Shown: positions 23,058 to 62,153 of the stretch, piece by piece
Numbering within the stretch: position 1 is the first letter of the stretch
Layout of the letters: each line of letters opens with the position of its first letter
Assembly: GCA_029432795.1 (NCBI GenBank)
Contig: JARNMJ010000001.1
Span: 62,001-126,000 of the forward strand
Source of the DNA: Pontiellaceae bacterium B12219
GTDB taxonomy: Bacteria; Verrucomicrobiota; Kiritimatiellia; Kiritimatiellales; Pontiellaceae
Direction: 5' to 3'
DNA length: 64,000 nucleotides
Position numbers and translations under genes: made by a program
Notes under the pieces: model-generated
Database searches by the model: none
What the model was told of the DNA's origin: nothing
Seen by the model: the letters and a program-made list of their open reading frames with translations, nothing else

Positions 23058-23131
23058 TTCGTAACGGGTAATCCGTAGTTGCAGCACGGTTGTGCTGCTT
23101 ACGTATTACGCAATACGCATTACGTTTCCCT
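23058..23131 (+). repeat. TAATTCG/ATTACG repeat leader with a hairpin, before the CPBP gene
   Basis: The tatA-CPBP spacer consists of CGTAACGGGTAATCCGTA and ACGTATTACGCAATACG phrases around a perfect hairpin, GCAGCAC (23081-23087) with GTGCTGC (23092-23098). The repeat runs to within six bases of the next ATG and no ribosome binding site is seen. Confidence 0.65.
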
Positions 23132-27535: not shown

Positions 27536-30100
27536 ATGGCGGAAAAGGAAGCAAAGGCTCGAATTAAGATCAACCGTCTGCTTGAAGAAGCAGGCTGGCG
27601 GTTTTTTGATGACAAGGCAGGGGCTGCGAATATTGTCCTTGAGCCGAATGTCAAAATGACTCAATCGCAGATTTCCAATCTCGGGGAAAATTTCGAGCAG
27701 ACCAAGAGCGGGGTTATCGACTTCCTGCTGTTGGATGAAAAGGGCTTCCCATTTGTCGTGCTGGAAGCCAAAGCTGAGCACATCCATCCGCTAAGCGCAA
27801 AGGAGCAGGCGCGTTCCTATGCCGCCGCTCAAAACTGTCGTTTTGTGATTTTGTCTAACGGGAACCTCCATTATTTCTGGGATTTGGAGCAGGGCAACCC
27901 GTATGTCATTTCCCGTTTTCCGACGCCCGGCTCTGTATCTGAGCATCGACGCTACGAACCGAACCCCGGGAAGCTGATCAGTGAACCGGTGGATAATGAT
28001 TACATCGCGTTGACTCAACTGCCTGGCTATTCAGAACAGGCTGGTTGGAAAAACGAGGATGAGCGGGATGGCTTCGTTGAAAAGAATCGCTTGCGGTTTT
28101 TGCGCGACTACCAGCTTCGGGCGGTCAAATCCATACAACGGGCGGTCAAAGAGGGGAACAACCGGTTCCTTTTTGAAATGGCGACCGGCACAGGAAAGAC
28201 CCTGACGGCGGCAGCCATCATCAAATTGTTCCTTCGCACAGGAAACGCCTCCCGCGTTCTGTTTCTTGTCGACCGGCTGGAGTTGGAAGATCAGGCCGAC
28301 AAGGACATGAAGCTGTATTTGAAGAACGATTACAGCTCGTTGATCTTTAAAGAGAATCGTGATGGATGGCGCAAGGCGGAGATTGTTGTAACGACGGTGC
28401 AATCGCTTCTCTTTAACGACAAATACAGAACCCTTTTTTCGCCGACCGATTTTGATCTCGTGATTTCCGACGAAGCCCACCGCTCCATCGGCGGGAACGC
28501 CCGCGCGGTTTTTGAATATTTTGTGGGCTACAAGCTGGGGCTGACCGCCACGCCGAAAAACTATCTGAAAAAAGCCGGAAAAACCGCGATGAAACAGGGC
28601 GATCCGCGCGAACTTGAACGGCGCATACTCCTGGATACCTACCGCACGTTCGGCTGCGATTCCGGCCATCCGACGTTCCGTTATTCCCTGATTGATGGCG
28701 TGAAGGCGGGCTTTCTGATCAATCCCTATGTGGTGGATGCCCGCACCGAGGTAACCACGAAGCTCCTTTCCGAAAAGGGGTATTCCGCCATGACGGTTTC
28801 GGAGGGGGAAGAAGATGCGGAGCAAAGCTTCTTTCAGAAGGATTTCGAAAAGAAATTTTTCTCCGATGCAACGAACCGGTTGTTTTGCCGAACCTTTTTG
28901 AAAAAAGCCTTGCGCGATCCGATCAGCAAAGAGATCGGGAAATCCATTGTATTTGCGGTCAGCCAAAACCATGCGGCCAAGCTGACGCAGATCCTGAACG
29001 AACTGGCCGATGAACTGTTTCCGGGGCGCTACCAATCCGACTTTGCAGTACAGGTGACCTCGTTAATTCGCGATGCCAAGCAATTCACCATCAATTTCAG
29101 GAACAACAACCTGCTGGGTTCCGCAAACGTTCTGGAAAGCTACCGCACCAGCAAAGCGCGGGTATGCGTTACCGTGGGCATGATGACCACGGGCTACGAC
29201 TGCCCCGACCTGCTTAACCTGGCACTTATGCGCCCCATATTTTCGCCACAGGATTTTGTGCAGATCAAAGGGCGCGGAACTCGAAAGCACAACTTCCTTG
29301 AAGAACTCTTCGATCCGGATCTGGAACAAAGCATTCAGGAAGCGAACGAGATCGTGCCGGATAAAACGCGCTACAAGCTCTTCGACTTTTTCGCTACCTG
29401 CGAATATTTCGAGAAAAAATTCGATTACGACGAAAAGCTCAAACTTCCAAAGCCTGGAAAACCTCGAACGGGAGGAGGGGGAGGGGAACCGCCGCCTCCG
29501 CAACCGCCGCCTGATGGGATATATACCCATGGAGGTACCGATGCCTTGATTGCCCTGGAAAGCGAGCAGATCGGTTATGAAGGCATGAAGGTTGACCGCA
29601 TGTTCTTTGAAAAGTTCGAAGACCAGGTAAAGGCCGATCCTGTGCTGCAGCAGGAAGTCGAAGCCGAGCGCTGGGATGTGGCGGTCGATTATGTGACCGG
29701 CAACCTGTTCGATAAACCGGCTGAATTTTTTACGCTCGAAAAGCTGCGCCGCGCCGCCGGGGTGGACCGCCGTCTGTCCATTCGCGAAATTCTGGAAAAA
29801 ATCTTTGGCCACATCAGCCACTTTAAATCCAGGGATGAGATTCTCGACGAAGAGTTCAATCGGTTTGTGCTCGATCAGAAGCCGGAAGACGCCGAACACC
29901 TCATGGCGATGAAGCGCTACTTCTCGGCCTATGCCGTCGACGGCTATCTGCGGAACATTATCGAAAGCGGTCATCTTTCCGATCTGAACGTCAATCCCTC
30001 TTTCAATATGGCCGATTTTAAGGAAGTACCGTCCAAGTGGCGCGAAACCATTCCCGAATACATCAAGGACTATGTTTCCCTGAACCAATTTATGCAATAA
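27536..30100 (+). CDS. hsdR: Type I restriction enzyme R subunit (EcoEI-type), locus 1
   Basis: An 854-residue R protein. The start at 27536 has GGAG seven bases upstream. An N-terminal endonuclease domain contains VIDFLLLDEKGFPFVVLEAKAE (D..ExK nuclease motif, residues ~55-80). The SF2 helicase follows: Walker A MATGTGKT near residue 216, DEAH near 311, GLTATP, and motif VI QIKGRGTRKH near 580. A Gly/Pro-rich linker (TGGGGGEPPPPQPPPDG) precedes the C-terminal EcoEI-type domain. It cleaves DNA when bound to unmodified HsdM/HsdS-marked sites. The linker region carries a one-mismatch TTCCAA palindrome (29445-29459). Confidence 0.93.
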   Translation: MAEKEAKARIKINRLLEEAGWRFFDDKAGAANIVLEPNVKMTQSQISNLGENFEQTKSGVIDFLLLDEKGFPFVVLEAKAEHIHPLSAKEQARSYAAAQNCRFVILSNGNLHYFWDLEQGNPYVISRFPTPGSVSEHRRYEPNPGKLISEPVDNDYIALTQLPGYSEQAGWKNEDERDGFVEKNRLRFLRDYQLRAVKSIQRAVKEGNNRFLFEMATGTGKTLTAAAIIKLFLRTGNASRVLFLVDRLELEDQADKDMKLYLKNDYSSLIFKENRDGWRKAEIVVTTVQSLLFNDKYRTLFSPTDFDLVISDEAHRSIGGNARAVFEYFVGYKLGLTATPKNYLKKAGKTAMKQGDPRELERRILLDTYRTFGCDSGHPTFRYSLIDGVKAGFLINPYVVDARTEVTTKLLSEKGYSAMTVSEGEEDAEQSFFQKDFEKKFFSDATNRLFCRTFLKKALRDPISKEIGKSIVFAVSQNHAAKLTQILNELADELFPGRYQSDFAVQVTSLIRDAKQFTINFRNNNLLGSANVLESYRTSKARVCVTVGMMTTGYDCPDLLNLALMRPIFSPQDFVQIKGRGTRKHNFLEELFDPDLEQSIQEANEIVPDKTRYKLFDFFATCEYFEKKFDYDEKLKLPKPGKPRTGGGGGEPPPPQPPPDGIYTHGGTDALIALESEQIGYEGMKVDRMFFEKFEDQVKADPVLQQEVEAERWDVAVDYVTGNLFDKPAEFFTLEKLRRAAGVDRRLSIREILEKIFGHISHFKSRDEILDEEFNRFVLDQKPEDAEHLMAMKRYFSAYAVDGYLRNIIESGHLSDLNVNPSFNMADFKEVPSKWRETIPEYIKDYVSLNQFMQ

Positions 30101-30168: not shown

Positions 30169-32121
30169 ATGCTCGATACCGAAACCAAACGCCGGATTGA
30201 TTCCTGCCGTGATATTCTCGTGGGCAAAGTGCCCGACCCGAAAAGCCAGGTGGAACAGATCACCATTGCCCTGATCTATAAATTTATGTCCGACATGGAT
30301 GCCGAATCGGTTGAGCTGGGCGGCAAACGGAAATTCTTTGCGGGCGACTACCGCAAATATGACTGGTCGCAGCTCATGGCATCGAACATGGGCGGGCACG
30401 ATGTGCTGCACCTTTATTCCGAGGCCATCACCAAAATGAGCCAGAACACCGGGTTGCCCGAACTCTTCCGCGACATCTTTAAAAACGCCTTTCTGCCCTA
30501 CCGCGATCCCGAAACCCTGCGTAGCTTCCTCAAGGAAATCAACGTTTTCACCTACGACCATTCCGAAAAACTCGGCGACGCCTTTGAATATTTGCTCTCC
30601 GTTCTCGGTTCGCAGGGCGATGCCGGGCAGTTCCGCACCCCGCGCCACATCATCGATTTTATGGTCGACGTCATGGATCCGCAGAAAAACGAATCGATTC
30701 TCGATCCCGCCTGCGGCACCGCCGGATTTTTGATCTCATCCTACAAACACATCCGCGCCGCCAATACCAAGAAACGACTCGGTGATAAACTGACCGCCGA
30801 CGACAAAAAACGGCTCGTCAAAAATATCCACGGCTACGATATTTCGCCCGACATGGTGCGCCTTTCGCTGGTGAACCTGTATCTGCACGGCTTCACCGAG
30901 CCGCACATCGAGGAATACGACACGCTCACCTCCGAAGAAAAGTGGAACGAGCTTTCCGACGTCATTCTTGCCAATCCGCCCTTCATGTCGCCGAAAGGCG
31001 GCATCAAACCGCACAAGCGGTTTGCCGTGCAGGCCAAGCGTTCTGAAGTGCTTTTCATGGACTATATCGCCGAGCACCTCACGCCCACCGGGCGCGCCGC
31101 CGTTATTGTCCCCGAAGGCATCATCTTCCAAAGCGGCACGGCCTATAAAGCACTGCGCAAAATGCTCGTTGAACAAAGCCTCGTCGCCGTCGTATCGCTC
31201 CCCGCAGGCGTCTTTCAGCCCTACAGCGGCGTCAAAACCTCCATCCTGATCATGAACAAGCGCCTCGCCAAAAAGCGCGACGATATCCTTTTTGTGAAAA
31301 TCGAAAACGACGGATTCGGCCTTGGTGCCCAGCGCCGCGAGGTTTCCGGCGAACAGCTCACCGAAGCCGCCGAACTGCTGAAGAAATTTTTTGGAGGGGC
31401 GCAGGCCTCTGCGACCGCGGACGGCGAGGCCGCCATCCCTCCACATCTCGCCCTCGCCGTGCCCAAAAAACAGATCGCCGAAAACGGCGAATACAACCTT
31501 TCCGGTGAGCGGTATAAAGTCGCCGAAATGCTCAGTTCGGATTATCCACTGGTTGAACTCGGAGAGGTGTGCAATCTCATCGGAGGAGGAACGCCATCCA
31601 AAAAGGATGCATCTTTCTGGGAGAATGGATCCGTTAAATGGATTTCCTCAAAACATATCAATGATCAATTCCAGGTTATCGGTTCAGAATTGATTACAGA
31701 GAAAGCGGTTCAGTCATCTGCAACCAAAGTTGTTCCCAAAGGTTCTACAATTCTCATTACGAGGGTTTCTGTAGGGAAGTTTGCATTTGCAGATGAGGAT
31801 TATGCAGTAAATCAGGATTTAACAGGTTTGGTTGTTAAAGCTGAGAGCCAACTCAATCCTAAATATTTATTTTGTATTTCAAAGCACCTTGCTGAAATTA
31901 TTGAACGGAGTGCGGAAGGGATCGGAGTTCGTGGAGTAACGCGGAAGTTTCTTTCCTCTCTTCAAATCCCGCTGCCGCCGCTGGCGGTGCAGCAGGAGAT
32001 CGTGGCGGAGATCGAGGGGTATCAGGAAGAAATTACGAATTACGAATTAGAAATTACGAAGTGCCGCAAAAAGATTTCCAAGACGATCAACCGGGTGTGG
32101 GGTGAAGATGAAGAAGGATAA
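30169..32121 (+). CDS. hsdM: Type I R-M methyltransferase fused to one target-recognition domain, locus 1
   Basis: A 650-residue protein. Residues 1-440 are HsdM: DPACGTAGFLISSY (SAM motif I, ~179), the catalytic NPPF near residue 268, and VIVPEGIIF. Residues ~455-650 are a single HsdS target-recognition domain followed by a coiled-coil helix (GEVCNLIGGGTPSKKD..IPLPPLAVQQEIVAEIEGYQ). Near the C-terminus an AATTACGAATTACG repeat is translated in frame as EITNYELEITK. There is no full hsdS nearby. The fused protein could give specificity as a dimer, as in M-half-S systems. It overlaps the four-helix gene by 14 bases. Confidence 0.9.
   Translation: MLDTETKRRIDSCRDILVGKVPDPKSQVEQITIALIYKFMSDMDAESVELGGKRKFFAGDYRKYDWSQLMASNMGGHDVLHLYSEAITKMSQNTGLPELFRDIFKNAFLPYRDPETLRSFLKEINVFTYDHSEKLGDAFEYLLSVLGSQGDAGQFRTPRHIIDFMVDVMDPQKNESILDPACGTAGFLISSYKHIRAANTKKRLGDKLTADDKKRLVKNIHGYDISPDMVRLSLVNLYLHGFTEPHIEEYDTLTSEEKWNELSDVILANPPFMSPKGGIKPHKRFAVQAKRSEVLFMDYIAEHLTPTGRAAVIVPEGIIFQSGTAYKALRKMLVEQSLVAVVSLPAGVFQPYSGVKTSILIMNKRLAKKRDDILFVKIENDGFGLGAQRREVSGEQLTEAAELLKKFFGGAQASATADGEAAIPPHLALAVPKKQIAENGEYNLSGERYKVAEMLSSDYPLVELGEVCNLIGGGTPSKKDASFWENGSVKWISSKHINDQFQVIGSELITEKAVQSSATKVVPKGSTILITRVSVGKFAFADEDYAVNQDLTGLVVKAESQLNPKYLFCISKHLAEIIERSAEGIGVRGVTRKFLSSLQIPLPPLAVQQEIVAEIEGYQEEITNYELEITKCRKKISKTINRVWGEDEEG
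32030..32060 (+). repeat. AATTACG repeat inside the hsdM-TRD 3' end
   Basis: Three to four units of the phrase AATTACG or AATTAGA in tandem, translated in frame in the fused HsdM. A related stretch (AATTTTTCATTCACAATTCG) follows the four-helix gene at 32472-32501. Confidence 0.75.
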
Positions 32122-32461
32122 TGTGGTTCAGGAGAAGAGCTATGCATTTGCAGTTCGGATTGTCCGGCTTTACCAGCATCTGACTGCCGAGAAAAAAGAG
32201 TTTGTACTTTCAAAGCAGGTGTTGCGCTCAGGCACGAGTATTGGTGCAAATGTCGAGGAGGCTATCGGTGGGCAATCACGAGCTGATTTTATTTCAAAGC
32301 TGGCGATTTCGTACAAAGAAGCCCGCGAAACTAGTTATTGGCTCCGTTTGCTGAAAGACACGGATTATTTGACTGAAACCGAATTTGTGAGCATTTATGC
32401 CGATGCAGAGGAATTATGCCGGATCATCGGAGCCATTCAGAAATCTGCAAAAGGAAGCTGA
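32108..32461 (+). CDS. Four-helix-bundle protein (S23/Avd-like), copy 1
   Basis: A 117-residue protein of the family first seen as 23S rRNA intervening-sequence ORFs (S23) and related to the Avd protein of diversity-generating retroelements. Signature residues: YAFAVRIVRLYQHL, QVLRSGTSIGANVEEAIGGQSRADFISKLAISYKEARETSYWLRLL. No known enzymatic role; basic four-helix bundles of this type bind nucleic acid. It lies within the type I locus between the hsdM tail and a second tail remnant, with AATTACG-type repeats on both sides. A relative is in locus 2 at 51392-51748. Confidence 0.88.
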   Translation: MKKDNVVQEKSYAFAVRIVRLYQHLTAEKKEFVLSKQVLRSGTSIGANVEEAIGGQSRADFISKLAISYKEARETSYWLRLLKDTDYLTETEFVSIYADAEELCRIIGAIQKSAKGS

Positions 32462-32465
32462 CTTC

Positions 32466-32603
32466 ATGTCATTCATAATTTTTCATTCACAATTCGTAAT
32501 TGATCCGCCGGAGCAGGCGCTGGTGGCGGCGAACCGCGAGCTGATCGCCCGCTTCGAGGAAAAGATTAAGCAAACCATTGCCCGCGTCTGGGGGGAAGGG
32601 TAG
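32466..32603 (+). pseudogene. Remnant second C-terminal tail of the HsdM/S protein
   Basis: An open frame whose last 30 residues (EQALVAANRELIARFEEKIKQTIARVWGEG) are the usual coiled-coil tail of type I S/M-TRD proteins. They parallel the end of the gene upstream (KCRKKISKTINRVWGEDEEG). The first residues are repeat-derived. It probably marks the original gene end, separated from its body by the four-helix gene. It may be silent or translated as a short peptide. Confidence 0.7.
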
Positions 32604-32648
32604 GGATGGACCGCCGGGCCGTCCGCCCGGGGCAATACTGGTTTTAAA

Positions 32649-32666
32649 CCCGTCGAATTCGACGGG
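32649..32666. promoter_or_regulatory. Palindrome CCCGTCGAATTCGACGGG before the KilA-N gene
   Basis: A perfect 18-bp palindrome 20 bases upstream of the KilA-N start, preceded by GTTTTAAAC. The core GTCGAATTCGAC also occurs at 53991-54004 upstream of dinD in locus 2, next to the same GTTTTAAAC. A related palindrome is inside the KilA-N gene (core 32891-32908). Confidence 0.6.
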
Positions 32667-32686
32667 ATTGAGAATGGAGCAATCCA

Positions 32687-33517
32687 ATGGGAAAAGCACA
32701 GAAAATCGAGGTGCTGGAACAGCCGGTTACCGTGCAGAAACTGCATGAGGATGACTATATTTGCATTACAGATATTGCACGTCATCGGGATAAGGAGCGT
32801 AGCGACTACATTATCCAAAACTGGATGCGGAACCGGAATACGATCGAATTCCTTGGGATCTGGGAGCAGTTGAACAATCCGGATTTTAATTCCATCGAAT
32901 TCGATGGAATTAGAAACCAGGCCGGATTGAACAGTTTTTCTCTGACTCCCAAACGCTGGATAGGGACGACCGGTGCCATAGGCATCGTTGCAAAAACCGG
33001 GCGCTATGGCGGGACGTTTGCGCACAAGGATATTGCGTTCGAGTTTGCGTCTTGGGTGTCGGTGGAGTTCAAGCTCTACCTGATCAAGGAATTCCAGCGG
33101 CTGAAGGAGGATGAGCGGAAGCAGTTGGGCTGGGATATTCGGCTCAACCTGGCGAAGATCAACTATCGCATTCATACCGATGCGGTGCAGGCGAACCTGA
33201 TTCCGCCGGAGCTGACTCCGCAGCAAATCAGCTTTGTCTACGCGAACGAAGCCGATGTGCTCAATATGGCGCTTTTCGGTATGACCGCCAAGCTGTGGCG
33301 GGAAGCCCATCCGGAGGACAAGGGCAACATCCGCGACCACGCCAACGCGGCGCAGTTGGTTTGTTTGGCCAATCTTGAAAACCTGAATGCACTGTTTATT
33401 TCGGAAGGGATGGATCGCAAAGAGCGGCTGGTGAAGCTGAACCAAACCGCGATCCGGCAGATGCAGCTGCTGACGGACGATGCCGGCGTACGCCGATTGG
33501 GAAAACAGGAGAATTGA
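32687..33517 (+). CDS. KilA-N domain protein
   Basis: A 276-residue protein with an N-terminal KilA-N DNA-binding domain (YICITDIARHRD..IIQNWMRNRNTIEFLGIWEQLNNPDFN, TPKRWIGTTGAIGIVAKTGRYGGTFAHKDIAFEFASWVSVEFKLYLIKEFQRL). The C-terminal half is a conserved helical region of chromosomally encoded KilA-N proteins. Such genes are common in phages and next to type I R-M operons; their job there is unknown. AATGGAG precedes the start. The following gene starts one base after its stop. Confidence 0.88.
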   Translation: MGKAQKIEVLEQPVTVQKLHEDDYICITDIARHRDKERSDYIIQNWMRNRNTIEFLGIWEQLNNPDFNSIEFDGIRNQAGLNSFSLTPKRWIGTTGAIGIVAKTGRYGGTFAHKDIAFEFASWVSVEFKLYLIKEFQRLKEDERKQLGWDIRLNLAKINYRIHTDAVQANLIPPELTPQQISFVYANEADVLNMALFGMTAKLWREAHPEDKGNIRDHANAAQLVCLANLENLNALFISEGMDRKERLVKLNQTAIRQMQLLTDDAGVRRLGKQEN

Positions 33518-51300: not shown

Positions 51301-51402
51301 TTACTCCTCGTTCGCGATATTCACCCGCCAGGTGCCGGTGAGCAGTTTCTGCATAAGGCCGCGCAGGGATTCATTGATCAGTGTACATTGTTCATTGAGC
51401 AT
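51301..51402 (-). pseudogene. Duplicated C-terminal tail of hsdS
   Basis: A 33-codon frame: repeat-derived start MLNEQCTLINES, then LRGLMQKLLTGTWRVNIANEE and stop. The RGLMQKLLTG.WRV part repeats the end of HsdS upstream (RGLMQKLLTGEWRV). Over 38 bases the DNA (51326-51363) is 32/38 identical to 51868-51905. The four-helix gene lies between the two copies. It probably represents the displaced end of hsdS. Confidence 0.85.
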
Positions 51403-51748
51403 TGTTTTTCGCGCTCCTTACGGTTGAAAACAGGATTTTGCCCAATTCATCGGCGTCGGCATGAATGCTGTTAAAAACCTTTTCTTCGATGTATCCGGTA
51501 TCTTTGAGCAGGTTCAGCCAATATTGGGTTTCCAGACATTCCTTGTAGGCAATGGACATTTTTGCGGCGAATTCCGGCTTGGAGATTGCGCCGATGGCTT
51601 CGGAAACATTTGCGCCAATCGAGGTGCCGCAACGCAATAGCTGTTTTGAAAGAACATATTCCTTATGTTCTTTGCAGAGCCATTTGTAGGCCTCCACAAT
51701 CCGAATTGCAAAGGCGTATGCTTTGTCATATGTAACATTGTTTTTCAT
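51392..51748 (-). CDS. Four-helix-bundle protein (S23/Avd-like), copy 2
   Basis: A 118-residue relative of copy 1 in locus 1: YAFAIRIVEAYKWL, YVLSKQLLRCGTSIGANVSEAIGAISKPEFAAKMSIAYKECLETQYWLNLL. Family as for copy 1. It is inserted at the 3' end of hsdS, with a different repeat type (TTCATTGATCACTGAAC and relatives) on each side at 51370-51404 and 51781-51860. Its last codons lie within the downstream repeat. Confidence 0.88.
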   Translation of the reverse strand: MKNNVTYDKAYAFAIRIVEAYKWLCKEHKEYVLSKQLLRCGTSIGANVSEAIGAISKPEFAAKMSIAYKECLETQYWLNLLKDTGYIEEKVFNSIHADADELGKILFSTVRSAKNNAQ

Positions 51749-51780: not shown

Positions 51781-51860
51781 CATTGATCACTGAACACTTC
51801 TTTCATTGATCACTGAACACTTCTTTCATTGATCACTGAACAATGATCATTGTTCAGTGA
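51781..51860. repeat. Tandem 23-bp repeat CATTGATCACTGAACACTTC... plus inverted half
   Basis: Two full 23-base units (51781-51803 and 51804-51826) and a third partial unit (51827-51841), followed by an inverted version TGATCATTGTTCAGTG. The repeat supplies the last ~15 codons of hsdS. A related stretch is on the other side of the four-helix gene (51370-51404). Confidence 0.9.
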
Positions 51861-52982
51861 AAACACTCGCCATTCACCGGTCAGCAGTTTCTGCATGAGG
51901 CCGCGTTTTTGGGTTTTGTATTTGTCCGCCAGTTTTTTGAGCAGGACGATTTCCCGTTGCGCCGTATTCAGGGTTTCGGCAATGGCTTTTTGTTCGTCGA
52001 GTGGGGGGAGGGCGACTTTGAGATTTTTTAGATCTTTTGAGTAAACATGTGGCTGCGCGCCTCCTGATTGCAATGCATAGATCCGATGTTGGAGTGACTT
52101 CAGCAAGTAGTAGTAGAATTTGGTGTTACCATCACCAACTGAAACCACATTGCAGTCAGATGCCCATAATGGATAATCGTGAAACCAGACAAAGCCGGCA
52201 TATGCGCCAGAAGCACTAATGGTAATACATTCTTCCGTATGCGTTGGGGTGTTATGAAAATAGGCATAGGTTTGTCCTCCTGCCACTACAGGGATTTTCC
52301 CTTTAGCAATTTTTGCTTTAATGAGAGGTGAACCTTTTTCGATGGTGATTTCTTTGCCGTATAGTTCCCCCAGCTTCACTTTTCGCCAATCGGAATTGTT
52401 TTGGTTGATGAGTTTGTTGAGGAGCCATTTGAAACGCTTTTTTTGGGCTTGGATGAGGCGTTCGGTGGTGGAGATGGCCCGGTCCCATGTCGACAGCACA
52501 TCCGCAATCGCTTTCTGTTCCTCAAGTGGGGGGAGGGAAAGGGGAAAGCGGTTTATGGTTTTCAGACTTAAGCCTGATTTTGCACCCGAATCATTTAATC
52601 GATTCAAGAGGTTTCGTTGAGGTTGACTGGCGAGGTAGAACGCTAGGAATTTTGGATGTACATCCGGTGATTCTACTCTGACAAGTGCGACGTGTTGATT
52701 TACATAGGCCTCTTCGATTTCGTTTTCAACAAATCCAATTTTTCCCAACTCGGCAGTAATTGAAATGAGAATGTCATTTTGTTTAACGCGGGTTCTAATT
52801 CCTTCTGATGAACCGGAGGGTAGTTTAACGTATTTTTTATCATGAAATAGAAGTCCAATGCCCTCTTTGGGTAAATTGGTCATGCGCAAAAAAAGCGCTC
52901 CTTTATCTGAGTAGTAAGATGCCCATCCACGAGATCCGCTCGTTATATTGGGGGCTATCTTTCCTAGGGTAGTTGTATTCAT
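51810..52982 (-). CDS. hsdS: Type I specificity subunit with two TRDs, locus 2
   Basis: A 390-residue HsdS. The start at 52982 (MNTTTLGKIAPNITSGSRG) begins TRD1, followed by the first conserved region (LSLPPLEEQKAIADVLSTWDRAISTTERLIQAQKKRFKWLLNKLI) near residues 150-195. TRD2 follows (WRKVKLGELYGKEITIEKGSP) and the second conserved region is VALPPLDEQKAIAETLNTAQREIVLLKKLADKYKTQKRGLMQKLLTG. The final ~17 residues (VFSLNNDHCSVINERSVQ) are encoded by the tandem repeat and replace the usual end. TRDs determine the DNA sequence recognised, which cannot be read from the protein. Confidence 0.92.
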   Translation of the reverse strand: MNTTTLGKIAPNITSGSRGWASYYSDKGALFLRMTNLPKEGIGLLFHDKKYVKLPSGSSEGIRTRVKQNDILISITAELGKIGFVENEIEEAYVNQHVALVRVESPDVHPKFLAFYLASQPQRNLLNRLNDSGAKSGLSLKTINRFPLSLPPLEEQKAIADVLSTWDRAISTTERLIQAQKKRFKWLLNKLINQNNSDWRKVKLGELYGKEITIEKGSPLIKAKIAKGKIPVVAGGQTYAYFHNTPTHTEECITISASGAYAGFVWFHDYPLWASDCNVVSVGDGNTKFYYYLLKSLQHRIYALQSGGAQPHVYSKDLKNLKVALPPLDEQKAIAETLNTAQREIVLLKKLADKYKTQKRGLMQKLLTGEWRVFSLNNDHCSVINERSVQ

Positions 52983-53031
52983 CAGACTCTCTTTTGTGAT
53001 TCGTTGTGCCGTTTCGTGGTTATGCTGAAGT

Positions 53032-53121
53032 TTAATCCCGTTGAATTGCGGCGAGCTTTTCAGCCATTTCCTTCCGGACCTTGGAAAGTTCAATTTCGAG
53101 GTCGTTGCTTTTATTCGTCAT
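53032..53121 (-). pseudogene. Duplicated C-terminal tail of hsdM
   Basis: A 29-codon frame (MTNKSNDLEIELSKVRKEMA.. ending AIQRD) overlaps the end of dinD. It repeats the last residues of HsdM at 54073 (ELEIELSKVRKEMAEKLAAL). About 67 bases are ~84% identical (53039-53105 versus 54077-54144). The dinD gene lies between the copies. An analogous tail remnant follows each four-helix gene. Confidence 0.82.
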
Positions 53122-59407: not shown

Positions 59408-59464
59408 CGCGAAAATGTAATGCGTAACGAAGTTGCGCATTCGTTCAGACGCATCTCATTTTTT

Positions 59465-59501
59465 TTACGAATTACGAATTACGAATTACGGATTACGAGT
59501 T
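59465..59501 (+). repeat. Tandem TTACGAA repeat directly before valS
   Basis: About four copies of the 7-base phrase ACGAATT/ACGGATT occupy the 36 bases immediately 5' of the valS ATG. No ribosome binding site remains. Confidence 0.85.
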
Positions 59502-62153
59502 ATGGCAGAACTAGCAAAACAGTACGACCCGAAAGAGGTTGAAGACAAGTGGTATAAGCAGTGGATGGAAGACGGCCGTTTTCATGGCGACAGCAAAGAT
59601 GGGGGCGACCCGTTCTGTATTGTGATTCCTCCGCCGAATGTGACCGGTATTCTGCACATGGGCCATGCGCTGAATAATAACATTCAGGATGTTCTGACCC
59701 GCGTTGCCCGGATGCAGGGTAAAAACACAACCTGGGTTCCCGGCACCGATCACGCCGGTATTGCTACACAGAATGTGGTGGAACGCGCCCTGAAAAAAGA
59801 GGGCATGACCCGCGACGATCTGGGCCGCGAAAAATTTATCGAGCGTGTCTGGGAATGGAAGGAGGAATATGGTTCCACCATTTCGAACCAGCTAAAAAAA
59901 CTGGGAGCATCCTGCGATTGGGAGCGCGAACGTTTTACGATGGATGAGGGGCTGAGCGAAGCCGTTCTCGAAATTTTCTGCCGACTGTACGACAAAGGTC
60001 TGATTTATCGTGGCAACCGGATCATTAACTGGTGTTCGCGCTGCGAAACCGCGCTTTCGGACGAAGAAAGTGAACACGTTGATGTGGAAGGCGCTCTCTA
60101 TCACCTGCGTTATGCGGTGAAGGGCAAAAAACAACGTATTGTTGTGGCCACCACACGTCCGGAAACGATGCTGGGCGATACCGCTGTTGCGGTGAATCCG
60201 CGCGATGAACGTTATAAGGATCTGATTGGCGAAATGGTCGTGCTACCGATCACCAACCGTGAAATCCCGATCATTGCCGACGACTATGTGGATCCGGAGT
60301 TTGGAACCGGTTTGGTGAAGATAACTCCGGCGCACGACCCGAACGACTTTGAAATGGGGCTTCGGCATAATCTTCCGCAGATCAATGTGATGACCAAGAC
60401 CGGTCTGATGAATGAAAATGCCGGTCCATACGAAGGCATGGATCGTTTTGAATGCCGCAAGCAGCTGATGGAAGATCTGAAAGCCGGCGGTTTGGTTGAG
60501 AAGGTGGAAACGCATCACCATGCGGTCGGGCATTGCTACCGTTGCGACACAGTGGTGGAGCCGCGTTTGTCGCCACAGTGGTTTGTGAAAATGAAGTCGC
60601 TGGCACGTCCGGCGATTGAGGCGGTGAATGACGGCCGGATCAAGTTTGTTCCGGAGCGTTGGAATAAAACCTATATGGGCTGGATGGAAAACATCCGCGA
60701 CTGGTGCATTTCCCGTCAGATTTGGTGGGGCCACCGTATTCCGATTTTCTATTGCGATGACTGCAATCATGAGTGGGCTTCAAAAGTTTCTGAAACGGCC
60801 TGTCCGAAATGTGCTTCGTCCAATGTCCGCCAGGACCCGGATGTGCTCGATACATGGTTTTCTTCGTGGCTCTGGCCGTTCAGTGTGTTCGGTTGGCCGG
60901 AGAAGAGTGAGGATCTTAACTTTTACTATCCGTCAAAAACGCTGGTTACCGGCAACGAGATTATTTTCTTCTGGGTGGCCCGTATGATTATGTCGGGGCT
61001 GGAAGTGATGAACGATATTCCGTTCGATACGGTGTATATTCACGGCACGGTGCGGGATGATCAGGGGCGTAAAATGTCGAAAAGTCTCGGCAATTCGATT
61101 GATCCGCTCGATATCATTGAAAAATACAGTTCAGATGCTCTGCGCTTTTCGCTGCTGATGATTACGGCCACGGGGCAGGATGTTTATATCAGCGATGAAA
61201 AGTTTGAAATCGGCCGTAACTTCGGAACCAAAATCTGGAATGCCGCCCGTTTCATGGAAATGCATTCGACCGATTTTGATGTGAAGGATCTGGCCTTTAA
61301 GAAGGAAGATCTGACGCCGGATGATCAGCACCTGCTGGCCAAGCTGAATGAAGCGATTGCCGCAACGAATGAAAATCTGCAGCGTTATCGTTTTAATGAT
61401 GCGACACTGGCGCTGTATGACTTTTTCTGGCACAGCTACTGCGACTGGTATCTGGAATACGCCAAACCGATTCTTTACAAAGGATCGCCGGAGCAGAAGA
61501 AGCACACGCTTCAGGTTATGCATTTTTCGTTCTCGACGGCGCTGCGTCTGCTGCATCCGTTTATGCCGTTCCTGACCGAGGAACTCTGGCATGGCATGGG
61601 ATACAATTATGAAGTCGAATCTATTATGGTTGCAGCATGGCCGGAAAAATCGATCGCGTCCGGAATTAATAAATCGATCGTAAAATACGTCGATGGAAAA
61701 CACGATCTGATCCGGATCGGTCGCATCCTGCGTGCGGAATATAATCTGGCCAATAAGCAGACGGCGACGTTCTGTGTGCGGGCTGCGAATGAGGCGGTTG
61801 CTGAGCAGATTGAGGCCGACAAAGCTTCGATTATTTCCGCGCTTAATGCCGAGGAAATCAATGTGGATGTCGACTTCTCGCCGAAAGGTGCGATGCCGAG
61901 CGGAATCAGCACATTGGGTACGGTGTATATGTCCATCGAAGGTCTCGTTGATGTGGATGCGGAAATCAATAAGCTGACCGCTGAGCTGAAAGAGGTCAAT
62001 GGCTTCCTGGCGGGTGTGAAACAAAAGCTTTCGAATGAAAATTTTGTAAACCGCGCTCCGAAAGAAGTGGTGGACGTGCAGAAAAAACGGCAGGAAGAGC
62101 TGATTGAAAAAGCCGATAAACTGGCGAAGATGATTGAAACATTGAAAAACTGA
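59502..62153 (+). CDS. valS: Valyl-tRNA synthetase
   Basis: An 883-residue class I synthetase. The start at 59502 ([21 protein letters not shown]) fits the family; upstream in-frame codons are repeat sequence. HIGH-type motif ILHMGHA near residue 51, KMSKS near 523, and the editing domain with [19 protein letters not shown] near 220. [15 protein letters not shown] is also diagnostic. A C-terminal tRNA-binding coiled coil ends [17 protein letters not shown]. Perfect TTCCAA palindrome starts directly after the stop. Confidence 0.97.

Follow-up and report, generated by a model that had tools for sequence, protein, structure and literature searches.

A fused hsdM-S gene of a Pontiellaceae bacterium with a probably remodelled specificity end and a passenger S23/four-helix unit

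Some integrative elements take over the 3′ end of their target gene: the gene end is regenerated, and the displaced original lies on the far side of the element. The 23S rRNA intervening sequence (IVS) of Coxiella burnetii carries an S23p ORF, terminal inverted repeats and direct heptamers before the ORF (PMC4990558), and Avd of diversity-generating retroelements has a homologous four-helix fold (PMC10053308). On the side of restriction-modification (R-M) enzymes, a Tn5 insertion in the EcoDXXI S gene left an active enzyme, a homodimer whose specificity was palindromic (PMC3874165), and an engineered HsdM/half-HsdS fusion was active, pairing with itself and methylating a two-part palindrome (PMC6158711). 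A literature search with coverage limited to part of the journals, and weak as evidence for that reason, returned no paper that mentions both four-helix bundle proteins and hsdS or Type I restriction; the one paper in which S23-IVP and restriction-modification terms coincided deals with retroelements. Here we describe two R-M loci in a 64,000-nt stretch of a Pontiellaceae genome (hereafter the window) in which an S23/four-helix gene lies between a specificity gene end and a second, detached gene end.

Two R-M loci with S23 genes between inverted heptamer arrays

At locus 1, an hsdR gene for an EcoAI-type R subunit (27536 to 30100, forward strand, start codon approximate; Pfam ResIII 1.6e-37 and HSDR_N_2; 4.6e-63 against the NCBIfam EcoAI-family R subunit model, which is below its cut-off) is followed by a fused hsdM-S gene of 650 aa (30169 to 32121, forward strand). 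The fusion has an N6_Mtase domain at residues 133-453 and one Methylase_S match at 458-624, and so a single TRD in its S part, the feature that marks half-S proteins, whereas two-TRD relatives are 789-942 aa long and most fetched hsdM-S relatives above 800 aa have two TRDs. Its C terminus runs in the order LPPLAVQQEIVAEIEGYQ, EEITNYELEIT, KCRKKISKTINRVWGEDEEG, stop. The first of these is the left conserved region (CR; 31972 to 32025, forward), in which nucleotide homology to CR2 of relatives mostly ends at 32015-32018, near CR residue 15. An AATTACG heptamer array found by repeat search and census (32031 to 32060, forward) then continues in frame within hsdM-S and is translated as EITNYELEITK; after it the gene reads KKISKTINRVWGE. 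This first, or surrogate, tail (32059 to 32121, forward) aligns without gaps to the tail of a one-TRD M-S gene in another fetched locus (L126) and is nearer to that tail type than to CR2 (score 144 versus 113); its motif recurs as a vestige in the cyanobacterial locus L044.

The four-helix bundle/S23-IVP gene (32108 to 32461, forward, 117 aa; PF05635 1e-29, TIGR02436 1.6e-32, PDB 2rld 3.2e-36) overlaps the hsdM-S stop by 14 nt and is followed by a 3′ inverted heptamer array (32472 to 32501, forward), 83% complementary to 32031-32060 over 30 nt. Between the arrays only the four-helix ORF fits, and no integrase was found inside the unit. The second tail, EQALVAANRELIARFEEKIKQTIARVWGEG plus stop (32511 to 32603, forward), lacks a start of its own and lies outside the reading frame of the four-helix gene; homology to the uninterrupted CR2 of relatives begins here, at CR residue 16. 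Matches to AATTACGAATTACGAATT with up to 2 mismatches were expected 0.00 times in shuffled windows and were found 6 times, at two places. Every part that the first-pass annotation had noted at locus 1 (in-frame AATTACG array, first tail, four-helix gene, second array and second tail) is present. It had also described two different repeats here; the two arrays of a locus are in fact inverted copies of each other. Further downstream, a palindrome around TCGAATTCGA occurs at 32642-32669, before a KilA-N gene, and again at 32881-32918, within the KilA-N coding sequence.

Locus 2, on the minus strand, repeats this order with another heptamer family, as had been proposed. It comprises an hsdS gene with two TRDs and a complete first tail, RGLMQKLLTGEWRV (51810 to 53093; Methylase_S in two stretches), a 5′ array (51825 to 51861), a four-helix gene (51392 to 51748; PF05635 1.5e-30; 58% identical to the locus 1 copy), a 3′ inverted array (51370 to 51404; 77% complementary to its partner) and a second tail, RGLMQKLLTGTWRV (51322 to 51363; 83% nucleotide identity to the first tail), all on the minus strand. 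Each of the three four-helix copies in the host genome has a heptamer family of its own; the third copy is intergenic, with guaA-like and carB-like neighbours (names taken from sequence reading, not family search).

Origin of the second tails

To locate second tails, the tails of upstream genes at all loci were scanned against 450 nt downstream. Among 103 upstream proteins, 8 carry Methylase_S, 1 is an Eco57I-type methylase (L085) and 2 are N6 methylases lacking Methylase_S (L034, L103). Convincing second tails occurred at 5 of these 11 R-M genes (locus 1, locus 2, L072, L084 and L085) versus 0 of the 92 others (hypergeometric chance ∼5e-6, or 1.4e-6 under a previous tally of 9 R-M genes), which bears out the suggestion that the arrangement recurs in unrelated R-M systems, with L072, L084 and the Eco57I-type methylase L085 as further cases. 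High scores at non-R-M genes were of low complexity, array-derived or no better than those of control windows, and those of L099 and L101 did not repeat the last residues of the gene. Tail duplication as a general property of S23 units was rejected, convincing pairs being found at R-M genes only. Nor was the idea that the four-helix unit produces the tail pair supported, as the pattern also appears with no S23 gene nearby: in L126 a one-TRD M-S gene with its own tail is followed by a Y1 (IS200-like) transposase (PF01797 2.1e-25) and a complete CR2, and in L131 a two-TRD gene is followed by a perfect hairpin and a second CR2. Second tails are a matter of R-M genes and not of the four-helix unit by itself.

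In most of the close M-S relatives fetched, there are two TRDs and the C terminus is a single, unbroken CR2, IVAEIEAEQALVAANRELIARFEKKIQATLARVWGED. The alignment to relatives with uninterrupted ends that the first-pass annotation had recommended places the junction at CR residues 15/16: against most relatives, left nucleotide homology ends at residue 15 and right homology starts at residue 16, and the window hsdM-S lacks TRD2 together with the first half of CR2. As judged from these alignments, the second tail is what is left of the CR2 that ended an ancestral two-TRD fused hsdM-S and not a copy of the first tail. The view of the tail pair as a gene-end duplication was not supported, the second tail being the CR2 end of a two-TRD gene. 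Locus 1 has no duplicated CR stretch, which weighs against a long target-site duplication, in which insertion of the unit into the gene end would have doubled 40-50 bp that later diverged; although the tails overlap by ∼42 nt in locus 2 and L072, second tails are missing from all 92 non-R-M upstream genes, and the differences between tails are mostly synonymous, a pattern that a dead, decaying copy would not show. In view of these synonymous differences and of the clean junction in CR, such a duplication is very unlikely.

The tail pairs differ by 5 synonymous and 5 nonsynonymous codons in locus 1, 4 and 1 in locus 2, 3 and 1 in L072, and 7 and 4 in L085. Pooled over these four pairs, 19 synonymous versus 11 nonsynonymous differences were observed where ∼25% synonymous would be expected for random change (p ∼1e-5), in a test that lumps four short pairs together and leaves out the more diverged L084 (3 and 8) and L126 (10 and 24); L131 has 5 and 3. 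Each single estimate is weak, the tails being 42-48 nt long. Since the differences are mostly synonymous, the two tails look like separately evolved alleles, which is support, not proof, for their being different alleles. The first-pass annotation had offered another allele as one explanation of the diverged tails, and the excess of synonymous codons (19 versus 11) favors that option.

A second tail left by a separate, since deleted downstream S gene, with the S23 unit lying between two S genes, would be in keeping with the duplicated hsdS genes reported for many Type I loci (PMC7394358). Against this, a second S gene is absent from that place in all relatives examined, none of which offers an independently starting S gene as a source of the tail, and right homology begins exactly where left homology stops. 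Furthermore, in L155, which has no S23 gene, the equivalent tail is a CR2 end directly upstream of the downstream gene shared with L072 and L084, so that the second tail in the L072/L084 family is the resident one; we consider a deleted S gene improbable. In the M-domain tree, one-TRD forms turn up at scattered places between two-TRD forms; L084 is the sister of the two-TRD L072 at 100/100. Loss of TRD2 is not part of every case, since L072 and locus 2 retain two TRDs, and an insert is not required for it, since no relic lies within 1.5 kb downstream in L180 and L182, which are one-TRD relatives. No second tail was found downstream of the complete end in other two-TRD relatives of the same phylum without an end insert (L133 looks frameshifted).

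Locus 1 is probably the remodelled specificity end of a fused hsdM-S carrying a passenger S23/four-helix unit. The best reading is that a two-TRD gene was turned into a one-TRD “M-half-S” form with its old tail stranded, and the enzyme appears from its domain content to have lost one of its two DNA-reading domains. A block made up of array, tail, S23 gene and inverted array would have entered by recombination at the conserved region, its left side joining by homology and its right side joining beyond the inverted array. It would thereby have taken the place of TRD2 and of the first half of CR2, with the old CR2 end stranded from residue 16 on; a one-TRD tail of the other type, its coil partly written by the heptamer array, now closes the gene. 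Such a block may survive by restoring a working C terminus, because loss of specificity or methylation in an R-M system whose R is still active endangers the host. By analogy with half-S enzymes, the M-S protein is predicted to be active, and the one-TRD fusion may pair with itself and methylate a two-part palindrome. Points against remodelling are that an older one-TRD lineage could have had the surrogate tail from the start and that TRD2 is kept in L072 and locus 2; among the fetched loci, no donor allele, event in progress or left crossover point was found. If this reading is right, it shows how restriction enzymes can come to a new specificity in nature, with an insert displacing a recognition domain and a replacement tail keeping the enzyme whole.

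Alternatively, the S23 unit itself may carry a spare hsdS C terminus (array plus tail), insert in frame without an integrase and push the old end to its far side. The clean junction at CR residues 15/16 fits such an element, as does L044 (Cyanobacteria), where the vestige CRGKISKAINKVWGN lies after the array and before the S23 gene, although the host gene already ends in a complete tail and stop of its own. The window and L044 tails have 12 of 17 residues in common and differ by 7 synonymous versus 5 nonsynonymous codons, in step with the S23 genes. Yet this is a single vestige, and nucleotide scores, used to ask whether first tail and S23 gene are inherited together, fail to separate it from ordinary hsdS tails; the tail lies outside the array in L072, L085 and locus 2, the unit encodes no recombinase, and second tails occur without S23 in L126 and L131. 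We therefore hold the portable tail to be doubtful. The wider proposal, that S23/four-helix units are widespread small mobile elements, flanked by inverted heptamer arrays, at gene 3′ ends with a subclass bearing a portable in-frame Type I specificity C terminus that switches a two-TRD to a one-TRD enzyme in one step, is likewise offered only tentatively. If true, that subclass could land in an R-M gene without killing it.

S23/four-helix units beyond R-M genes

At least one four-helix gene was present in 140 of 288 genomes of the phylum, and S23 relatives of 60-84% identity occur in Cyanobacteria, Bacteroidota, Desulfobulbaceae, Planctomycetes and others; a plasmid search added 24 further records with S23 genes, all at ≤60% identity. 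Among the 123 S23 loci fetched, which come from many phyla, 114 have inverted arrays that score above shuffled flanks; the best period is 7 in nearly all. The upstream gene was on the same strand in 108 loci and on the opposite strand in 9, its stop mostly within ∼60 nt of the four-helix start. Array arms pair better with their own partners than with those of other loci (mean 18.7 versus 10.8), the own partner beating all 12 sampled others in 61 of 120 loci. The S23 unit is general in kind, not peculiar to R-M genes; it has the look of selfish DNA and is putatively mobile. Divergence of the S23 gene is mainly synonymous (59 versus 20 codons between the window and L044; 29 versus 9 and 42 versus 9 between trpD-linked copies), and on these codon counts purifying selection acts on the S23 protein. 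Our guess is that the protein binds a hairpin RNA or single-stranded DNA formed by the arrays; folding of the whole unit as RNA was not better than that of shuffles (z 0.87), though the arms do pair in the predicted fold. Across Flavobacteriaceae, a four-helix gene recurs after what is apparently one and the same glycosyltransferase-family-3 (trpD-like) gene (L053, L055, L057, L059, L060, L061, L074 and L120), a recurrence that suggests long retention at a single site.

Arrays also occur on their own. An AATTACG array of about five units lies in the window at 59462-59502, directly before the start of a valS-like gene, and a shorter heptamer array at 23100-23125, both without a four-helix gene. 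Elsewhere in the same genome, apparently intergenic inverted heptamer arrays without a four-helix gene (L217, L219, L198, L220 and L223) have the opposite order (CGTAATT ... ATTACG) to S23 units, and longer solo arrays are found at L201 and L212. In two loci of the same hsdM-S family (L125, L136), a four-helix gene, also between 7-base repeats, is upstream of hsdM-S. In L072 (2408-4960), the array-derived peptide NYELPITNYE is in frame in CR1 of hsdM-S with no four-helix gene there; an hsdM gene in L103 (4374-4841) contains the in-frame array peptide FKFVIHNSQFIID; and in L096 (4247-4987) an hsdR-like frame ends early, directly before a four-helix gene. L116 had been flagged for an array-like peptide and was discarded, its upstream gene being saccharopine-dehydrogenase-like and free of such a peptide.

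Comparison with known systems

The fold of the four-helix protein is homologous to that of Avd, though its match to the bAvd model (4.5e-4) is below the cut-off. A retroelement acting in cis was rejected, with no RVT_1 in the genome; no reverse transcriptase match (PF00078), a feature of diversity-generating retroelements, was found in the 96%-complete host genome. Like integrative elements that replace gene 3′ ends, the locus shows a regenerated gene end and a displaced original end beyond the insert; it differs from them in that the unit measures ∼0.5 kb and has no integrase. The half-S systems (EcoDXXI S::Tn5, EcoR124I HsdS(delta50), NgoAV and the engineered M-half-S) resemble it in that one TRD is left, the second having been removed by insert or truncation (PMC3874165, PMC6158711). 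In the window, by contrast, the fusion of M to half-S is natural, another tail has taken the place of the old one where those systems show a simple cut, the insert is an S23 unit, and activity is a prediction. With the Coxiella IVS, the unit has in common an S23/four-helix ORF (S23p/PF05635), terminal inverted repeats or stem, heptamers before the ORF and a similar size (about 430-490 nt). It is located at the end of a protein gene, hsdM-S, rather than inside an rRNA gene, and excision by RNase III is a feature of the IVS. The shared parts mark the window unit as an IVS-like unit outside rRNA. If the reading above holds, the nature of S23 proteins and rRNA intervening sequences, a long-standing question, would become testable outside rRNA, because many copies occur in operons of protein genes, where the inverted arrays match and both the old and the new gene end can be read.
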